Below, one piece after another: positions 1,285 to 8,729 of a DNA stretch of 32,872 nucleotides (position 1 is its first letter; each line of letters opens with the position of its first letter). The stretch comes from Phycisphaerales bacterium (GTDB taxonomy: Bacteria > Planctomycetota > Phycisphaerae > Phycisphaerales > UBA1924). A program made the translations under genes and the position numbers. The stretch covers positions 1 to 32,872 of the forward strand of contig JAFIFZ010000014.1 in assembly GCA_020831775.1 (NCBI GenBank). The letters run 5' to 3'. The notes under the pieces were generated by a model. That model was not told where the DNA came from and ran no database searches. It was given only the letters and a program-made list of their open reading frames with translations.

Positions 1285-2304
1285 TCAGTCGCCCGCGGCG
1301 GCGTGGGGCGGTTGCTGTTCGAGGAGGTCGTGGATCGCGTCGGCGAGGCGTCCGGTCGTGGGGGGCTCGGCGCGGAGGATGCCGGAGCGATCGACGACGA
1401 AGAGCCTGGGGATGCCCTCGATGCCGGTGACATTGAACCAGAGGCGGTTGGCCTCGCGCGAAGGGAAGCCGTGCAGGTGGGGCCAGTCGAGCTCCAGCGA
1501 CTCGATCTTCTCCGTCGCCCGCGCCATGGCGTTGCTGCTTGGTTGTTCGAGGCTGATGCCGACAAACTCGACACCCTGCGCGGCGAAACGCTCGCGCAGC
1601 TTGTGCATCTCGGGCATTTTAGTCAGGCAGGGGCCGCACCACGAGGCCCAGGCGTCGTAGACGACAATCTTTCCGAGCATGTCTTGGTGGGTCATGCGCT
1701 CGCCGTCGAGCGTGGGCAGGTCGAACTCGAACGGTTGGCCGACGACTGGCAGGAAGGGCACGCGGTAGTTTTCGGTTTCAGGCGCGTCGGCGTAGGCCTT
1801 GGCTCGCTCCACGCGGCCTTCGTAGTCGAGCACCGCAACACCGAACCAGGCCGCCCGCGAGAGCACTTCGTCGCTATTGATGTGGTACACCGACTGGACG
1901 GCGGCTCCATGGATCCGTATCCCGATCGGCCCGTTGCGGATCGCTTCGCCCGAAGCGTCGGCAAACCGCACCATAAAGGTCGGAGTCTTCATGCGCGACT
2001 CTGTCCGGCCCCTTTCGTACCCGAGGCGCACCTCGTTGATCATCCCTTTCTCGATGATGGGCTCGACGACAACCTCGCCGACGCCTTCAAGCGTGATCGA
2101 GATCTCCTCCATCGTGTCGAGGTCGAACGGTTGCGGCGGCACAACCCAGCGGTACCCGGCGGGGAGCTGGACCACCGACTCGCCCGTTTTCTGCTCGGCC
2201 GCGTCGTGCGGCGCGGGCGCTGCGTCCGGGGCGGCCGCGGCGTGCGTGTGCAGCATGGCCGCGGCGAGGCAAGGGAACAGCAGCCGGGATGCGATCGTAG
2301 TCAT
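1285..2304 (-). CDS. Secreted TlpA-like thiol-disulfide oxidoreductase
   Basis: 339 aa. The reading frame stays open further upstream, but the ATG at 2304 is preferred: an AGGA lies just upstream, and it directly begins a signal peptide (about residues 1-24, Ala-rich). Residues 25-180 are an unassigned N-terminal region. Residues 185-335 form a TlpA/AhpC-TSA-type thioredoxin fold with the active site WCGPC (Cys223 and Cys226) and a cis-Pro loop in GIPRLFVVD. TlpA-like proteins reduce or exchange disulfides of exported proteins, and the intact CGPC suggests real redox activity. The protein is followed on the same strand by a paralogue lacking this motif, so the pair may work together outside the cytoplasm. 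The partner protein cannot be told from the sequence. Confidence 0.88.
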   Translation of the reverse strand: MTTIASRLLFPCLAAAMLHTHAAAAPDAAPAPHDAAEQKTGESVVQLPAGYRWVVPPQPFDLDTMEEISITLEGVGEVVVEPIIEKGMINEVRLGYERGRTESRMKTPTFMVRFADASGEAIRNGPIGIRIHGAAVQSVYHINSDEVLSRAAWFGVAVLDYEGRVERAKAYADAPETENYRVPFLPVVGQPFEFDLPTLDGERMTHQDMLGKIVVYDAWASWCGPCLTKMPEMHKLRERFAAQGVEFVGISLEQPSSNAMARATEKIESLELDWPHLHGFPSREANRLWFNVTGIEGIPRLFVVDRSGILRAEPPTTGRLADAIHDLLEQQPPHAAAGD

Positions 2305-2549: not shown

Positions 2550-2807
2550 TTGAGCGAGAACGCGCCAACTCGGTATTGCAAGCACTGCAAGGCCGTGCGG
2601 CCCGTCGTTCCCGACCGGCCGGATTGGCTTCTGCACATACTTGTCGTCCTCCTGATCCCGCTCTGGCTGATCGGGTTGCTGATTCTGGCCGTGCTGGCAG
2701 TGATCTGGCCGAACCGTTGCGAGGGATGCGGGCGGATGGCGGGGCGGGCGAGGCGCGGGCGGGAACTGATCGGAAACGCGGGCGCCCTCTGCTCAGAGGG
2801 TTTTTGA
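2550..2807 (+). CDS. Small CxxC-TM-CxxC (zinc-ribbon-like) membrane protein
   Basis: 85 aa from TTG at 2550. That start has GGAG (2538-2541) 8 nt upstream; the in-frame GTG at 2541 overlaps the same GGAG and is less likely. Layout: YCKHCKAVRP (first CxxC) near residue 9, a strongly hydrophobic helix of about 28 residues (WLLHILVVLLIPLWLIGLL and on), then RCEGCGR (second CxxC), then a basic tail. The two CxxC pairs could form one zinc ribbon only if the helix folds as a hairpin; otherwise they lie on opposite sides of the membrane. A clear paralogue with the same plan is at 4283-4534. The stop codon overlaps the next gene's ATG (TGATG), suggesting translational coupling. I do not recognise a named family. 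Confidence 0.7.
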   Translation: MSENAPTRYCKHCKAVRPVVPDRPDWLLHILVVLLIPLWLIGLLILAVLAVIWPNRCEGCGRMAGRARRGRELIGNAGALCSEGF

Positions 2808-3292
2808 TGTCAGGGCGTCGTACAAGCTGGCCTTCCAGCATCGAACCAGACATCAACCGCCTCGTAGAGGTCGGCGACCGCTGGCTCGCGGACCACAGCA
2901 ACCCCAAGATTGACCATGACATTTTGTACGAAATGGATGGGAAGACATGGATATTGTCGGATAGAGAGTGGGGATATCTGCTGGAGCTGTTTATGCGATT
3001 CGTGCCCGCGATGGATCCTCTTGCGCTGCAGCGTCTTTCGATTATTGCTCACTATTCAGATTGGACGAAGGATCAGCTTGCTTCGTTGTGCAATCGTGTC
3101 GTAGAATGCGCAGATGTCGAGGGTGCGATTGAATTGGTTGACCTCGTGCTCCACCGTTTGCAAAACGACGATTGTTCTATCCGCGAATGTTGGCAGTTTG
3201 TAGGCGGTATCATCCGGAGCCAAAAATTTAGGTCTAAGGATGATGAGAATCTGTTTTTGAGCAGGATGAGTACAAGACTCAGCGGCAAGTGA
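2807..3292 (+). CDS. Hypothetical protein, AT-richer accessory gene
   Basis: 161 aa. The ATG at 2807 shares its first base with the upstream stop codon (TGATG) and has AGAGG at 2796-2800 as a plausible ribosome site. The frame is open far upstream, but that part overlaps the divergent TlpA gene and looks like GC-rich shadow. There is no signal peptide or membrane segment. It looks like an acidic, helical, soluble protein with several Trp and Cys residues; I do not recognise the family. Base composition is visibly lower in G+C than the surroundings, and codons such as ATT, TTT and AAA are common, suggesting horizontal origin. With the similar gene at 3421 and a possible RHS remnant at 3981, an orphan immunity protein is one possible reading, but this is inference only. 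Confidence 0.65.
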   Translation: MSGRRTSWPSSIEPDINRLVEVGDRWLADHSNPKIDHDILYEMDGKTWILSDREWGYLLELFMRFVPAMDPLALQRLSIIAHYSDWTKDQLASLCNRVVECADVEGAIELVDLVLHRLQNDDCSIRECWQFVGGIIRSQKFRSKDDENLFLSRMSTRLSGK

Positions 3293-3420
3293 AAGTTGAT
3301 GCGTACGACGGCGTATAAACCTATGCACTTGGGGCGCCCCGGAGGCGCAAGGTTCGTTCTGCTTCCATCGGAGTTAGGTCTTGCCCGAACGCGATCACCC
3401 CTCCAGCAAGGAGCCGAGGC

Positions 3421-3936
3421 ATGCGAGAACCAGAGTCATCCGGCAACTGCATGAACGCCCTCGGCATGATAGTGGGGCTATCTGTGCCTATCAGTGAAGA
3501 TGATATCAGCGTGCTCATTGAGGCCATCAACATTTTGGATGAAGAGTCCGTGGCGTACGAGACGCCCGGATGGGAGTTCTTGTTCCACTTTGTCGTTCAG
3601 AACATCGATCGCTTCGATTGCACCGCGGCAACGATTCATTTCGGCCGTTTCATTGCGCTAAGCAAATGGACAGCAATGCAGAAGGCGAGCATCGTACGCG
3701 CATTGGTGCTTTCGGCTTCCGACATCGATACGCCCGAAGCGTGCCTCCGGACCATTTTATATGGCAGCGGCGTTGAAGACAATCGACTGCTCATCGACGA
3801 GGCGCTGTCCGCCGCCAAGCAGAGATCAGACGGCGATTATGGCGTGCTCTTGAGCGTTGTAGAGAGAGCCACGGACCTGGAGCGAATGGAAGACGAGGCA
3901 GACGGAGGCGACCCAAGTCCCGCCGGCGACCCGTAG
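3421..3936 (+). CDS. Hypothetical protein, AT-richer accessory gene
   Basis: 171 aa. The ATG at 3421 has an excellent AAGGAG site 7 nt upstream. A second Met (residue 11) could also start it. The protein is acidic and soluble, with helical segments resembling a small alpha-solenoid (about residues 25-150) and a low-complexity Asp/Gly/Pro tail. No family is recognised. As in the 2807 gene, G+C is lower than in the flanking housekeeping genes. The 128-nt gap before it (3293-3420) has no clear promoter or terminator beyond a GGGGCGCCCC palindrome near 3333. The two genes have similar size and character but no alignment I would defend by eye. Immunity-type or other accessory functions are possible. 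Confidence 0.65.
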   Translation: MREPESSGNCMNALGMIVGLSVPISEDDISVLIEAINILDEESVAYETPGWEFLFHFVVQNIDRFDCTAATIHFGRFIALSKWTAMQKASIVRALVLSASDIDTPEACLRTILYGSGVEDNRLLIDEALSAAKQRSDGDYGVLLSVVERATDLERMEDEADGGDPSPAGDP

Positions 3937-4282
3937 CGAGTTGGGCGATTGCCGGATCAAAGTGAACGGCACACAGGATCAGCGATGATCAGAGGGGCAA
4001 CTTGACCAAGGTCGAGTTTCGCTACAACGCCGCGCACTGGCGGGTCGAGATGACCGCGATGTGTGGGGGGGCTGGGCTCCGTCGAGGAGGTCCTGGGAGG
4101 TCCCGGGCCCGGGCGTGACCGTGGGCCGGTTCGGGGCTACAAATTGTCTGGTCCGCCCCGTGTCCGGCCTGAGCCGTCCGCCTTGGTGGGTGAGCTCGCA
4201 TATTCCGGCGGGGCGGGCCGTTGTTTTTGATGCCGGCGCGTGGGGTGGAACGCGGGCTCGCCAATCCCGCAACAATCTCTGC
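3937..4282. other. 346-nt spacer after the accessory genes
   Basis: No intact gene is supported here. It contains the possible RHS-type fragment at 3981-4061, then GC-rich sequence with a GGTCCCGGGCCC stretch near 4105 and no clear terminator or promoter. It looks like decayed sequence joining the accessory patch to the second zinc-ribbon-like gene. Confidence 0.5.
3981..4061 (+). pseudogene. Possible RHS/YD-repeat gene fragment
   Basis: One frame reads SDDQRGNLTKVEF and then RYNAAHWRVEM before dissolving into Gly-rich nonsense; an in-frame stop lies shortly upstream. GNLTKV followed by a (F/Y)RYNA-x-x-(W/Q)R-(V/I) segment is the cadence of RHS/YD repeats, which in planctomycetes are long surface or toxin-delivery proteins. 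Only about 25 residues remain, so this is recognition by eye and may be chance. If real, it would explain neighbouring immunity-like accessory genes. Confidence 0.3.
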
Positions 4283-4534
4283 ATGCTGACCCGCGAGCAG
4301 GTGCTCAGAGATCTTCCCGAGAGGGTTGAGCGGCGGCCTGCTGCGGTGGCGGCGGAGTCGGAGCTGTTGTACTGCCGTCGCTGCCGGGGTGTGCGGCTGT
4401 TTCGCAGGCGGGATCCGAGCGTCTTTACGAAGGTCTTCCTGTTTGTCTTGCTTCCGATCTGGTTGTTCTTTCTCGTCCGCGCCCGGATGCGGTGCACCGA
4501 CTGCGGGCGCTCGGGCGGGCGGGGGTTCGGCTGA
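4283..4534 (+). CDS. Small CxxC-TM-CxxC (zinc-ribbon-like) membrane protein, second copy
   Basis: 83 aa from ATG at 4283; the frame is open further upstream but without homology or a ribosome site. Layout: a charged N-terminus (about 30 residues), LYCRRCRGVRLF (first CxxC), a hydrophobic segment VFLFVLLPIWLFFLV (about 54-68), then MRCTDCGRSGGRG (second CxxC). It matches the 2550-2807 product in order and motifs (YC-x2-C-x-x-VR, helix containing LLP(I/L)WL, RC-x2-CGR), so the two are paralogues flanking the accessory genes. The ribosome site is weak. The function is unknown; a membrane-associated metal-binding protein is the most that can be said. Heptad C-tracts begin 10 nt after the stop codon. 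Confidence 0.6.
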   Translation: MLTREQVLRDLPERVERRPAAVAAESELLYCRRCRGVRLFRRRDPSVFTKVFLFVLLPIWLFFLVRARMRCTDCGRSGGRGFG

Positions 4535-4543
4535 TCGCCGGCG

Positions 4544-4575
4544 CCCCACGCCCCACGCCCCACGCCCCCCCCTCC
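4544..4575. repeat. Heptad C-tract repeat CCCCACG
   Basis: CCCCACG is repeated three times at 4544, 4551 and 4558, followed by a run of C. This is the reverse complement of the GGGGCGT unit at 111-147, again just after a stop codon (4534) and again C-rich on the transcript strand. The rest of the gap to dnaE (4576-4742) is GC-rich without a recognisable promoter. Confidence 0.65.
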
Positions 4576-4742: not shown

Positions 4743-7700
4743 ATGTCGAGCACGCTGGTTTATCCCGAGGGGGCGCCGCCGCCGGAGCGGCAGTTCGTCC
4801 ACCTGCACCTGCACACCGAGTACTCCCTCCTGGACGGGGGCAACCGGGTCGACCGGCTGGTCGCCCGGGTGAAGGAGCTCGGGATGCCGGCGGTGGCCGT
4901 CACCGACCACGGGAACATCCACGGGGCCGTGTCGTTCTACGAGATCGCGCGGCGTGAGGGGATCAAGCCGATCCTCGGGGTCGAGGCGTATGTGGCGCCC
5001 GGCGACCGGCGCGACCGGACCTACACCGGCGTGCAGGACGGCGGATACCACCTCGTGCTGCTCGCTGAGAACGAGACGGGGTGGAACAACCTGCTGTATC
5101 TCTGCTCGGAGGCGTACCTCTCGGGGTTCTACTTCAAGCCGCGGATGGACCGGGAGATCCTCAAGACCCACGGCAGCGGCCTGATCGCGATCAACGGGCA
5201 CCTCGGCAGCGAGATCGGCGAGCACCTGCTCGACTATGTCCGCTCGGGCGAGGACAAGAAGCATTGGGAGAAGGCGGTCGAGAGCGCGAGGTGGCACGCG
5301 GAGTGCTTCGCTGACGAGGGGACGGGCCCGCGGTTCTTTGTTGAGCTGCAGAAGCATGTGCCCGAGCAGAACGCCATCAACCCGCACCTGATCCGCTTGG
5401 CGCAGGAGCTGGATCTGCCGTTGGTGTGCGACAACGACTCGCACTTTCTCAGGGCCGAGGACCATGATGCGCACGATTCGCTCATCTGCATCTCGATGGG
5501 GAAGGTGAAGAACGATCCGGGGCGGATGCGGTACACGCCGGAGCTGTATGTCAAAAGCCCCGAGCAGATGCGGGATCTCTTCGAGGGTGAGTTCGGCGAG
5601 GTGGGCAAGGAGGCGTGCGAGAACACGCTGCGGATCGCCGAGCGGTGCAATGTCGAGCTGCCGATCGGGGCGAACCATGCGCCGGTGGTGCGGATCGAGA
5701 TGCCGCCGGAGCGGGAGCTGCCGAGGCATGACGACGCGGCGTACGCCGGTGACCTGACGGCGTGGTACACGGAGTTCAGCTCGCGATTTAGTTTGGAGCC
5801 CTTTGCTGAGGGCGAGAGCGGGCTGACAACCGAGGAGCTGAAGGCGCAGTGCGATGGGGCGTTGCGTTTGCTCGCCGAGGCGGGGATGGTCTGGCGGTAC
5901 GGGCCGGAGATCCTCGAAGAGCGCCACGAGCTGATCGAGGGCGAGGTTGTCGCGGAGGGGAAGTCCGAGGGCTGGCTGAAGTGGGCGAGGCTGAACCGCG
6001 AGCTGAAGATCCTCGCGGACAAGCTGATTTCGGCGTACTTCCTGATCGTCTGGGACTTTGTCAACTGGGGTCGCCAGCGCGGGATCCCCGCCAACGCCAG
6101 AGGTTCGGGCGTGGGCACGATGGTCGGATTCGTGCTCGGCCTGTCCAACGCGTGTCCGGTGCATTACGGACTGCTGTTCGAACGCTTCACCGATCCTGAC
6201 CGGGCGGAGTATCCCGATATCGATATCGACCTCTGCCAGGACGGGCGGGGGGATGTGATCCGGTATGTGCGCGAGAAGTACGGGGCGCAGAGCGTCGCGC
6301 AGATCGTGACCTTCGGGACGCTGAAGGCGAAGGCCGCGATCCGCGATGTGGCGCGCGTGCACGAATTCCCGCTCAGCGAGACCGACAAGCTCGCGAAGAT
6401 GATCCCCGATCAGCTCGGCATCACGCTCGACAAGGCGCTCGAGCAGGAGCCGGACCTCAAAGCGCGGTACGAGGCCGAGCCGGAGGTGAAGCGGATCATC
6501 GATACGGCTCGGACGATCGAGGGGCAGGCGCGGCATTGCGGGGTGCACGCCGCGGGTGTGGTGCTGGCGAACCGTGCGCTGCACGAGATCGTGCCGCTCT
6601 TCCGCCAGGCGCAGGCGGGCGACGACGAGGTGGTGACGCAGTGGGACGGGCCGACCTGCGAGAAGATGGGCCTGCTCAAGATGGACTTTTTGGGCCTGCG
6701 CACGCTCTCGGTGATCGAGCGGTGCAAGCGGCTCATCCGCGACACGCTGCCGGAGAAGGCGCAGTGGGAAGCGGTGGGGCGCGAGAAGGGTGACGGCGGG
6801 CCGCACCCGTTGGATCTGGAGCGCCTCACCTATGACGATCCGCGGATTTTCGAGTTGTTTACGCGGGGCGATACGACGGGCGTGTTCCAGTTTGAATCCG
6901 GCGGCATGCGTCGCTTGCTGGTGGACATGAAGCCCGACCGGCTGGAGGACCTGATCGCCGCGAACGCGCTGTTCCGGCCGGGGCCGATGGACCTCATCCC
7001 CGACTACAACCGTCGCAAGCACGGGCAGGACACCGTGCCGAAGGTGCACGAGATCGTCGACCGCTTCACGGCCGAGACCTACGGCGTCATGGTCTACCAG
7101 GAGCAGGTGATGCAGATCGTCCACGAGCTGGGCGGCATCCCCCTGCGGGCGGCGTACGCGCTGATCAAGGCGATCAGCAAGAAGAAGGAAAAGGTCATAG
7201 CGGGCGAGCGCCCGAAGTTCATCGAGGGCGCCGGCAAGAAGGGCCTGAGCAAGGACAAGGCCGACGAACTCTTCGAGCTGATCCTCAAGTTCGCGGGCTA
7301 CGGCTTCAACAAGAGCCACTCGACAGGCTACGCCATCGTCGCGTACCAGACCGCGTACCTGAAGACCTACTTCCCTCGCCATTACATGGCGGCGTTCCTC
7401 ACTTTCGAGAGCCAGGCGCAGAAGGCCAGCGACTGGATCCCCTACCTCGAAGACACCAAGAAGACGCGGACGATCGACCCGAAGACCGGGCGCATCATCG
7501 GCGACCGCATCGAGGTGAAGGCGCCGGATGTGAACCTGTCGCAGGCGGACTTCGCGGTGGTGTACGCGCCCGACGAGCCGAAGGACGCGGCGCACGGGCA
7601 CATCCGGTTCGGGCTGCGGGCAATCAAGGGCGCGGGCTCCAAGGCGATCGAGACGATTATCCGCGAACGCGACGGGGGCGAGGACGCCGAGCCGGTGGCG

Positions 7701-8729
7701 TTCCGGTCGATCTTCGATTTCTGCGAGCGTGTCGGCACGGGGGCGGTGAACAAAGCGACGATCGAGTCGCTGATCAAGTGCGGGGCGTTCGATTCGGTGC
7801 ACGGGAGGGACTGCCGTGCGGCGATGGTCGCGACGATCGAGCAGGCCGTCAGCGCCGGGCAGAAGGTGGCGCAGGACAAGGCGGCGGGTCAGGCGCAGCT
7901 GTTCGGTTTCGGCGGGGGCGAGGCGGACGCGCCGGCGGTGGAAGCCTCAGAGCCGCCGCTCGCGAAGGTCGATCCGTGGTCGGAGGCGGAGATCCTGCGC
8001 CAGGAGTTCGACATCCTGGGCTTTTACATCTCCAGCCACCCGCTCAAGCAGTGGGAGGCGTGGACGGGCGCGTTCGTCAACGCGACGGCACGATCGCTCG
8101 CGGACATGCCCGACGGGCGGCGCGTCATCATGGCGGTGCTGGTCACCTCGACCCGCTCGCTGGTCGCCAAGACCGGCAAGAGCGCCGGGCGGCGCATGGC
8201 GGCTTTGGGCGTGGAGGACATGACCGGCCCGACGCAGGCGATCATGTTCCCCGACGCCTTCGAGAAGTACGGGCACTTGCTCGAGAGCGACGGGCCGAAG
8301 TTCATGCTCGGGCGCGTGGATCTGTCGCGGGCGGAGCCGCAGATCATCATCGATCAGCTCGCCCCGATCGAGTCCGTGCCTTTGGAGCAGGGTCGGCTGT
8401 GCGTGTTCCTGAGCGAGCCGCGGCTGAACGGGGGGAGCGATTCGGCGCTCGATGCGCTGCACGAATTGATCCGGGGGTCGGCGCTGCGCAACGGGGCGGC
8501 GGCCCTCGTCCCTTCCGCTCCGGTGGACATCGCCGTCGAGACCGAGAGCGACATTGTGTATCTGCGCCCGTCGAGCGAGATCCGCGTCCCGCTCGAGCCC
8601 GCGTTCCTTGGCGAGACCGTCAGGCTGCTGGGCGAGGGGACCGTCAAGCTTGTCGGTGGTGTGGCGCTGGAGGTGCAGGAGCGCAAGCAGTGGGGCAAGC
8701 GCCCGCGCCGGACCGACGACGACGAGTGA
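4743..8729 (+). CDS. dnaE: DNA polymerase III subunit alpha (DnaE)
   Basis: 1328 aa, longer than the E. coli protein (1160 aa). GGAGG lies 5 nt before the ATG. It is the replicative polymerase, polymerising DNA at the fork with the beta clamp. An N-terminal PHP domain (about 18-290) retains likely metal ligands: HLHTEYS (21-27), TDHGN (54-58), and DNDSH (230-234). These are often lost in E. coli-like DnaE, so PHP exonuclease activity is possible. The palm catalytic acids are seen in PDIDIDLCQDGR (from 491) and in KMDFLGLRTL (Asp648). The fingers region includes FRPGPMDLIPDY and GYGFNKSHSTGYA. An OB-fold lies near residues 1120-1200 (MAALGVEDMTGPTQAIMF). It ends 9 nt before the convergent Nudix gene with no terminator between. 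Very high confidence. Confidence 0.98.
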   Translation: MSSTLVYPEGAPPPERQFVHLHLHTEYSLLDGGNRVDRLVARVKELGMPAVAVTDHGNIHGAVSFYEIARREGIKPILGVEAYVAPGDRRDRTYTGVQDGGYHLVLLAENETGWNNLLYLCSEAYLSGFYFKPRMDREILKTHGSGLIAINGHLGSEIGEHLLDYVRSGEDKKHWEKAVESARWHAECFADEGTGPRFFVELQKHVPEQNAINPHLIRLAQELDLPLVCDNDSHFLRAEDHDAHDSLICISMGKVKNDPGRMRYTPELYVKSPEQMRDLFEGEFGEVGKEACENTLRIAERCNVELPIGANHAPVVRIEMPPERELPRHDDAAYAGDLTAWYTEFSSRFSLEPFAEGESGLTTEELKAQCDGALRLLAEAGMVWRYGPEILEERHELIEGEVVAEGKSEGWLKWARLNRELKILADKLISAYFLIVWDFVNWGRQRGIPANARGSGVGTMVGFVLGLSNACPVHYGLLFERFTDPDRAEYPDIDIDLCQDGRGDVIRYVREKYGAQSVAQIVTFGTLKAKAAIRDVARVHEFPLSETDKLAKMIPDQLGITLDKALEQEPDLKARYEAEPEVKRIIDTARTIEGQARHCGVHAAGVVLANRALHEIVPLFRQAQAGDDEVVTQWDGPTCEKMGLLKMDFLGLRTLSVIERCKRLIRDTLPEKAQWEAVGREKGDGGPHPLDLERLTYDDPRIFELFTRGDTTGVFQFESGGMRRLLVDMKPDRLEDLIAANALFRPGPMDLIPDYNRRKHGQDTVPKVHEIVDRFTAETYGVMVYQEQVMQIVHELGGIPLRAAYALIKAISKKKEKVIAGERPKFIEGAGKKGLSKDKADELFELILKFAGYGFNKSHSTGYAIVAYQTAYLKTYFPRHYMAAFLTFESQAQKASDWIPYLEDTKKTRTIDPKTGRIIGDRIEVKAPDVNLSQADFAVVYAPDEPKDAAHGHIRFGLRAIKGAGSKAIETIIRERDGGEDAEPVAFRSIFDFCERVGTGAVNKATIESLIKCGAFDSVHGRDCRAAMVATIEQAVSAGQKVAQDKAAGQAQLFGFGGGEADAPAVEASEPPLAKVDPWSEAEILRQEFDILGFYISSHPLKQWEAWTGAFVNATARSLADMPDGRRVIMAVLVTSTRSLVAKTGKSAGRRMAALGVEDMTGPTQAIMFPDAFEKYGHLLESDGPKFMLGRVDLSRAEPQIIIDQLAPIESVPLEQGRLCVFLSEPRLNGGSDSALDALHELIRGSALRNGAAALVPSAPVDIAVETESDIVYLRPSSEIRVPLEPAFLGETVRLLGEGTVKLVGGVALEVQERKQWGKRPRRTDDDE

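Follow-up and report, generated by a model that had tools for sequence, protein, structure and literature searches.

The LITAF domain (PF10601, zf-LITAF-like), known from human LITAF/SIMPLE and CDIP1, is mutated in an inherited human neuropathy and places two CxxC knuckles around one hydrophobic helix, within about 60-70 residues in all. The domain is reported to bind zinc, to be held by a monotopic, in-plane membrane anchor and to occur throughout the eukaryotes (PMC5142333). Here we describe two small proteins of the same plan and size, P1 and P4, encoded near one end of a 32,872-nucleotide stretch of contig JAFIFZ010000014.1 of a Phycisphaerales bacterium (assembly GCA_020831775.1; the whole stretch is called the window below). 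Their genes stand around two others, P2 and P3, upstream of a gene that we take to be dnaE from its sequence hallmarks (Table 1).

We favour the reading that P1 and P4 are native membrane zinc ribbons belonging to a scattered bacterial and phage family, and that P2 and P3 are lineage-specific genes, probably acquired; on the evidence below we consider this probable. In each protein a single zinc ion would then be held by the two CxxC knuckles, brought together at the cytoplasmic face, and the hydrophobic stretch would enter the inner leaflet to serve as an in-plane or re-entrant anchor. P1 and P4 may thus act as small adaptors at the membrane surface, much as the LITAF domain of eukaryotes is reported to do. 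P2 and P3, predicted to be helical (tetratricopeptide repeat (TPR)- or HEAT-like), would have landed, or stayed, between the native microprotein genes at a variable site, with no fixed functional link to them. An earlier reading of the same DNA (the original prediction) had named the four genes as a candidate undescribed system. Our results do not show a new system; the microproteins join an existing, scattered family.

The finding itself is modest. It points to a family of membrane zinc ribbons of 60-90 residues with the LITAF plan, scattered over bacteria and phages, for which the libraries searched hold no named function. Should the likeness reflect common descent, bacteria and phages would be a place to look for the origin of LITAF, and their small proteins would make a simple model for studying how a LITAF-like anchor sits in the membrane.

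Two paralogous microproteins and their family

We scanned the whole window in six frames for a hydrophobic stretch (mean hydropathy >1.6) with a CxxC motif on either side, and P1 and P4 alone were returned. The two are identical in 19 of 58 aligned columns, and their local alignment scored 84 against a shuffle mean of 24.7 (standard deviation 4.5), a value reached by 0 of 2000 shuffles. BLAST gave E 1e-9 in a single comparison, and a search of the bacterium's own genome gave E 6e-4. Judged by these alignments P1 and P4 are paralogues, and the claim that two paralogous microproteins of the same plan flank two genes is confirmed. The CxxC pairs are 43 residues apart in P1 and 36 in P4, compared with 42-44 in four other measured members of the family; 12 and 30 residues, respectively, precede the first cysteine. 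Between the CxxC pairs of P4 the longest run free of D, E, K, R, H, N and Q is 15 residues, which is short for a bilayer span and suits an anchor that does not cross.

As gathered here, the family comprises proteins with a CxxC pair, about 36-44 residues containing one hydrophobic stretch, and a second CxxC pair; P1 and P4 both have this spacing. A profile of just two rows, P1 and P4, found matches in 4 of the 399 other genomes of the order, and in two of these the same plan forms the C-terminus of proteins of 345 and 306 residues. We set aside the match in G288 (L071), which covers part of the profile only and lies in a frame across another gene, and that in G059 (L072), whose frame has no cysteines. 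A four-row profile had matches in 11 of the 391 other planctomycete genomes in the sample, and both CxxC pairs could be read in 10 of them. Five of these members (G437, G557, G604, G634, G667) are frames of 66-77 residues, two (G520, G554) are frames of 122-196 residues that shorten to 64-74 with a later start, and the longer ones are those of G688 (124 residues), G476 (218) and G689 (237), the last fused to an Rce1-like CAAX-protease-type domain. The match in G702, where both CxxC pairs were not seen, was set aside. The four-row alignment found one locus in the species collection (L088), which holds the same protein as L069. With a 12-row profile, 5 of 118 relatives (an overlapping set) gave a match, and two of these matches (G056, G091) are clear; those in G099, G026 and G027 are partial and weak and were set aside. 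At the planctomycete locus L107 (3919-4632), a LITAF-like domain is fused to an Rce1-like CAAX-protease-type membrane domain beside a gene that is presumably UvrA-like.

The family extends to phages. A tblastn search with one family member gave 23 phage records at E<=1e-3, and with another member 2. Among five phage proteins or frames that we read, Vibrio phage Ceto has both CxxC pairs, a Rhizobium phage the second only, Pseudanabaena phage Pam3 the first only and two Streptomyces phages neither. Two scans of viral contigs yielded 20 loci, 11 of them with both CxxC pairs, one of these being Ceto; a pattern search of the viral contigs with the P1/P4 alignment found no relative. We also observed a phage and viral branch (L110:1432-1707, L111:1348-1668, L121-L125, L128-L130) that has none of the four cysteines and keeps the hydrophobic segment around H-x-x-HLIL and GLW.

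Profiles built from other members recovered the two window proteins. A profile of 10 planctomycete relatives, excluding P1 and P4, placed both window frames and the P4 copy in L039 at the top of 2276 frames, with E about 2e-7 for P1 (28.9 bits) and P4 (29.4 bits) and the next frame at 0.39. A profile of 10 viral or phage members, likewise without P1 and P4 (Z=4000), gave E 2.5e-9 (34.6 bits) for P1 and E 5.2e-4 (17.5 bits) for P4. By these scores the relation of P1 to the bacterial and phage family is established and that of P4 very likely. The motif NHxLHL, common before the helix in this family and with its two histidines invariant in the 10 viral members, is absent from both window proteins (DWLLHI in P1, SVFTKV in P4). 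Some planctomycete members also have no NHxLHL, so the motif does not define the family.

The likeness to the LITAF domain stops short of membership. PF10601 did not match P1 or P4 at E<=10, and their N-termini have no counterpart of the proline-rich arm of eukaryotic LITAF proteins. Other members of the family did match the model. Six of the 12 aligned members matched at E<=1, the best at 6.8e-5; of the viral members, 5 of 10 matched at E<=0.1, the best at 3.6e-4; and of five more, one matched at E<=0.01. As a cut-out domain covering positions 7-66 of 70, the best bacterial relative scored 23.4 bits, just below the cut-off of 23.8; taken whole, the two best proteins scored 19.1 and 16.9 bits. 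Short family proteins also weakly match many other zinc-ribbon and membrane models, among them DUF4234 in 8 of 10 viral members. By analogy P1 and P4 probably work like a LITAF domain; the scores do not make them one.

Four PHROGs families of unknown function (phrog_2697, phrog_17545, phrog_34413 and phrog_36892) were matched at E<=0.1 by 9, 9, 8 and 8 of the 12 aligned members, with a best E of 2.9e-11; P1 alone reached phrog_2697 at E 0.11 only, and P4 none of the four at E<=1. Sequences from the PDB gave nothing meaningful for P1 or for the 12-row profile. Searches of the open-licence literature, one of them swamped by other papers, listed none that describes a LITAF-like domain in bacteria or phages, which is no proof of absence.

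P2, P3 and the question of a functional unit

The two genes between the microproteins are AT-richer than these, as the original prediction had stated. The fraction of G and C at third codon positions (GC3) is 0.59 in P2 and 0.67 in P3 versus 0.81 in P1 and 0.83 in P4. It is 0.91 in dnaE and 0.79-0.93 in the other long frames of the window that pass a filter of GC3 >0.75. The tlpA2 frame, taken with too long an upstream portion, has 0.76.

No relative of P2 or P3 was found at E<=0.001 in the 399 other genomes of the order, and none at E<=1 among the phages and plasmids searched. Pattern searches found no P2 relative in the species collection or viral contigs and no P3 relative in the viral contigs. 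For neither protein did Pfam, NCBIfam, PHROGs, PADLOC or PDB sequences yield a meaningful match. Weak matches at E<=0.1 (P2 in 17 of 60 relatives, P3 in 5 of 60) were rejected, being partial and mostly short pieces of long frames. The statement that no known family fits holds for these two genes; for P1 and P4, which have the scattered family and its LITAF-like plan, it does not.

Table 1. Genes of the locus and its flanks (positions in the window)
Feature	Position	Strand	Description
P1 (P0001)	2550..2807	+	small membrane zinc-ribbon-like protein, CxxC-hydrophobic helix-CxxC; start TTG 2550 (GGAG 8 nucleotides before) or GTG 2541
P2 (P0002)	2807..3292	+	161 amino acids; predicted soluble helical-repeat protein; AT-rich; no relatives found in the collections searched
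P3 (P0003)	3421..3936	+	171 amino acids; all-helical prediction at low confidence; AT-richer; no relatives found in the collections searched
P4 (P0004)	4283..4534	+	second CxxC-helix-CxxC microprotein, P1 paralogue; frame open upstream from 4061, start uncertain
dnaE	4743..8729	+	presumed dnaE-type DNA polymerase III alpha subunit; conserved gene bordering the variable site
TlpA-like pair	148-1197 and about 1285-2304	-	two tandem paralogous, presumably TlpA/thioredoxin-like genes; other flank

The single-sequence model of P2 is a helical repeat (predicted local distance difference test (pLDDT) 67, predicted template modelling score 0.58), with blocks of pLDDT 83-90 over residues 111-160 and helices at 52-65, 71-83, 88-101, 104-120, 125-138 and 144-159. 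Like TPR and HEAT-like repeats it is a stack of helices. In the PDB it comes closest to designed helical repeats, and TPR domains are found among the other matches (best match: Z 9.2, root-mean-square deviation 3.7 over 140 residues). For helical repeats Z below about 13 means little, no structural match reached E<=0.001, and there is no sequence relation; viral structure models likewise gave no match at E<=0.001. The P3 model is all-helical at pLDDT 48, with low-confidence helices at 50-64, 67-80, 85-99, 105-115, 118-134 and 141-161. The helices of the two models lie roughly in register with the P2-P3 sequence alignment. The sequences themselves show a weak likeness (shuffles scored as well in 114 of 2000 cases by local and 64 of 2000 by global alignment; BLAST E 0.18). 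We take this as a hint that P2 and P3 may be diverged duplicates.

The strongest alternative to native zinc ribbons around acquired genes is that P1 and P2, and perhaps P3 and P4, are working two-gene units in which the membrane zinc ribbon anchors a co-transcribed soluble helical-repeat partner; with P2 and P3 as old duplicates, the locus would be a duplicated pair of anchor and partner. The stop of P1 overlaps the start of P2 (TGATG), as was correctly noted in the original prediction; the coupled expression deduced there rests on this overlap. The weak likeness of P2 and P3, both predicted to be helical with helices in register, suits this reading too. So do L069 and L070, where the same membrane domain forms the C-terminus of a longer protein, and G091, where a microprotein gene is closely followed by another gene (see below). 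The order of the genes, microprotein-helical-helical-microprotein on one strand, is not what a simple tandem duplication would give. At the P1/P2 junction stands a terminator-like hairpin (2784-2801); its energy is ordinary, no stronger than in shuffles, and two terminator-like sites were found in the region versus 2.3 expected.

A P2- or P3-like frame (phmmer, E<=1) was present at none of 18 other loci (L069 and L088 being the same gene) and at none of 38 further loci, some of which overlap with the first 18 and three of which hold set-aside matches. These 56 loci are mostly microprotein loci, most of them covering only some 1.5 to 5 kb on each side, and the neighbours of the microprotein genes differ among the loci read. 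Together with the search of the 399 genomes, this argues against the claim that microprotein and soluble partner form a functional unit. The original prediction had named two outcomes that would speak against it, and one was found: the microproteins occur without these neighbours, most of the 56 loci being microprotein loci. The other was not, since in the collections searched the cargo turned up in no other context. A P1-P2 unit is possible and is unsupported by co-occurrence; we regard the two-gene reading as unlikely.

In the same-family genome G091, a DUF5677 gene (E 5.6e-13) starts 10 nucleotides after a CxxC-helix-CxxC microprotein gene (L099:4726-5712 for the arrangement). This is a similar arrangement with an unrelated partner, and we keep the idea of exchangeable partners open at a low probability. 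We found no paper linking DUF5677 with defense in the open-licence literature. A bolder version would see in the locus a new kind of membrane system, two-part and duplicated, in which a LITAF-like monotopic zinc ribbon is translationally coupled to a soluble helical-repeat partner that varies between loci (P2/P3, DUF5677, a fused longer domain or a CAAX-protease-like domain), with the bacterial and phage microproteins as general platforms for exchangeable effectors and possibly as a prokaryotic relative of LITAF; we give it little credence.

P2 and P3 could also be chance open frames in an AT-richer intergenic stretch. Frames as long as P2 and P3 arose in 54 and 60 of 1000 shuffles of the region, respectively, so that length is only moderately unlikely by chance and the two are probable, not proven, genes. 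The want of relatives in what was searched and the poor P3 model fit chance frames, as do three sigma-70-like promoter matches antisense to P3 (3466-3863, minus strand; 0.4 expected in shuffles), which may reflect just local AT-richness. Against them, both frames show the coding pattern GC3 > GC1 > GC2 and both have Shine-Dalgarno-like stretches (GAGGG 6 nucleotides before P2, within the terminator-like hairpin, and AAGGAG 7 nucleotides before P3), and P2 folds from its own sequence in the confident block noted above. We consider this explanation improbable. The ATG of P4 has no Shine-Dalgarno-like stretch before it.

The variable site upstream of dnaE

The dnaE gene was matched in 58 of 61 genomes, the bacterium's own included. 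We compared the loci at the start of dnaE in 29 (L040-L068) of the 57 other genomes with a match; at least 4 of these 29 loci are cut by contig ends. None holds a CxxC-helix-CxxC frame or a relative of P1-P4, and a relative of TlpA2 was seen in one only, as a partial match (L062). The site upstream of dnaE is variable, which agrees with the accessory patch of the original prediction.

A mobile origin of the whole stretch, microproteins included, as a decayed remnant of a phage or other element with P1 and P4 as phage accessory genes, would account for the presence of the family in phages and viral contigs and for the higher score of P1 with the viral than with the planctomycete profile. The planctomycete member in G437 moreover lies in a low-GC stretch with frames that are presumably helix-turn-helix- and integrase-like. 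P4 shows the opposite order of scores, the GC3 of P1 and P4 is near that of the host, the window holds no tRNA, and P1-P4 matched no defence family (PADLOC) and no named phage family (PHROGs). Rfam likewise gave no match. An imperfect 19-nucleotide direct repeat (GTTTTTGATG; 2800-2818 and 4223-4241, 16 of 19 alike) lies near both edges of the AT-richer stretch; we rejected it as the mark of a mobile element, since 4 of 20 shuffles contain one or more pairs that match as well. The sequence near 4192, suspected to be a shared element, occurs once in the bacterium's own genome and was likewise rejected. We think a phage remnant doubtful at best.

Native zinc ribbons around acquired genes remain the reading that we prefer, and several results weigh against it. 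The absence of P2 and P3 relatives cannot show transfer, and within the genus no empty site was observed, since dnaE had no match in its two other genomes, both incomplete. A P1-P2 operon would suit both the TGATG overlap and the GAGGG ahead of P2. The run free of D, E, K, R, H, N and Q in P1 is 25 residues long and could cross the membrane. P1 and P4 themselves reach no curated family: neither has a match above the curated cut-off, or below E 0.01 where none is set, in Pfam, NCBIfam, PHROGs or PADLOC. Searches of close relatives with the single proteins gave just weak matches inside other frames, in 2 of 40 and 6 of 60 genomes (E<=0.1 for the 60), and tblastn of the plasmid collection with one family member gave none. 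The planctomycete set was gathered with profiles containing P1 and P4, so that its test is partly circular; the viral members were gathered with two seeds, Ceto and a planctomycete member from the same search, and the viral profile is much weaker on P4 than on P1 (17.5 versus 34.6 bits).

Two further observations concern the flanks. The tandem genes on the side away from dnaE, presumed to be TlpA-like after the WCGPC motif, are 31% identical over 272 columns; one keeps WCGPC and the other has CSSSPAC at the same place. Short tandem arrays of two related heptamers in opposite orientation (GGGGTGT x4.6 at 111-142 and CGCCCCA x3.9 at 4542-4568) bracket a 4.4 kb segment that comprises the TlpA-like pair and the four genes and ends just before dnaE. 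The arrays gave 5 overlapping pattern matches versus 0.01 expected in shuffles, and among 131 loci compared their exact 14-mer occurs in loci of the bacterium's own genome only.

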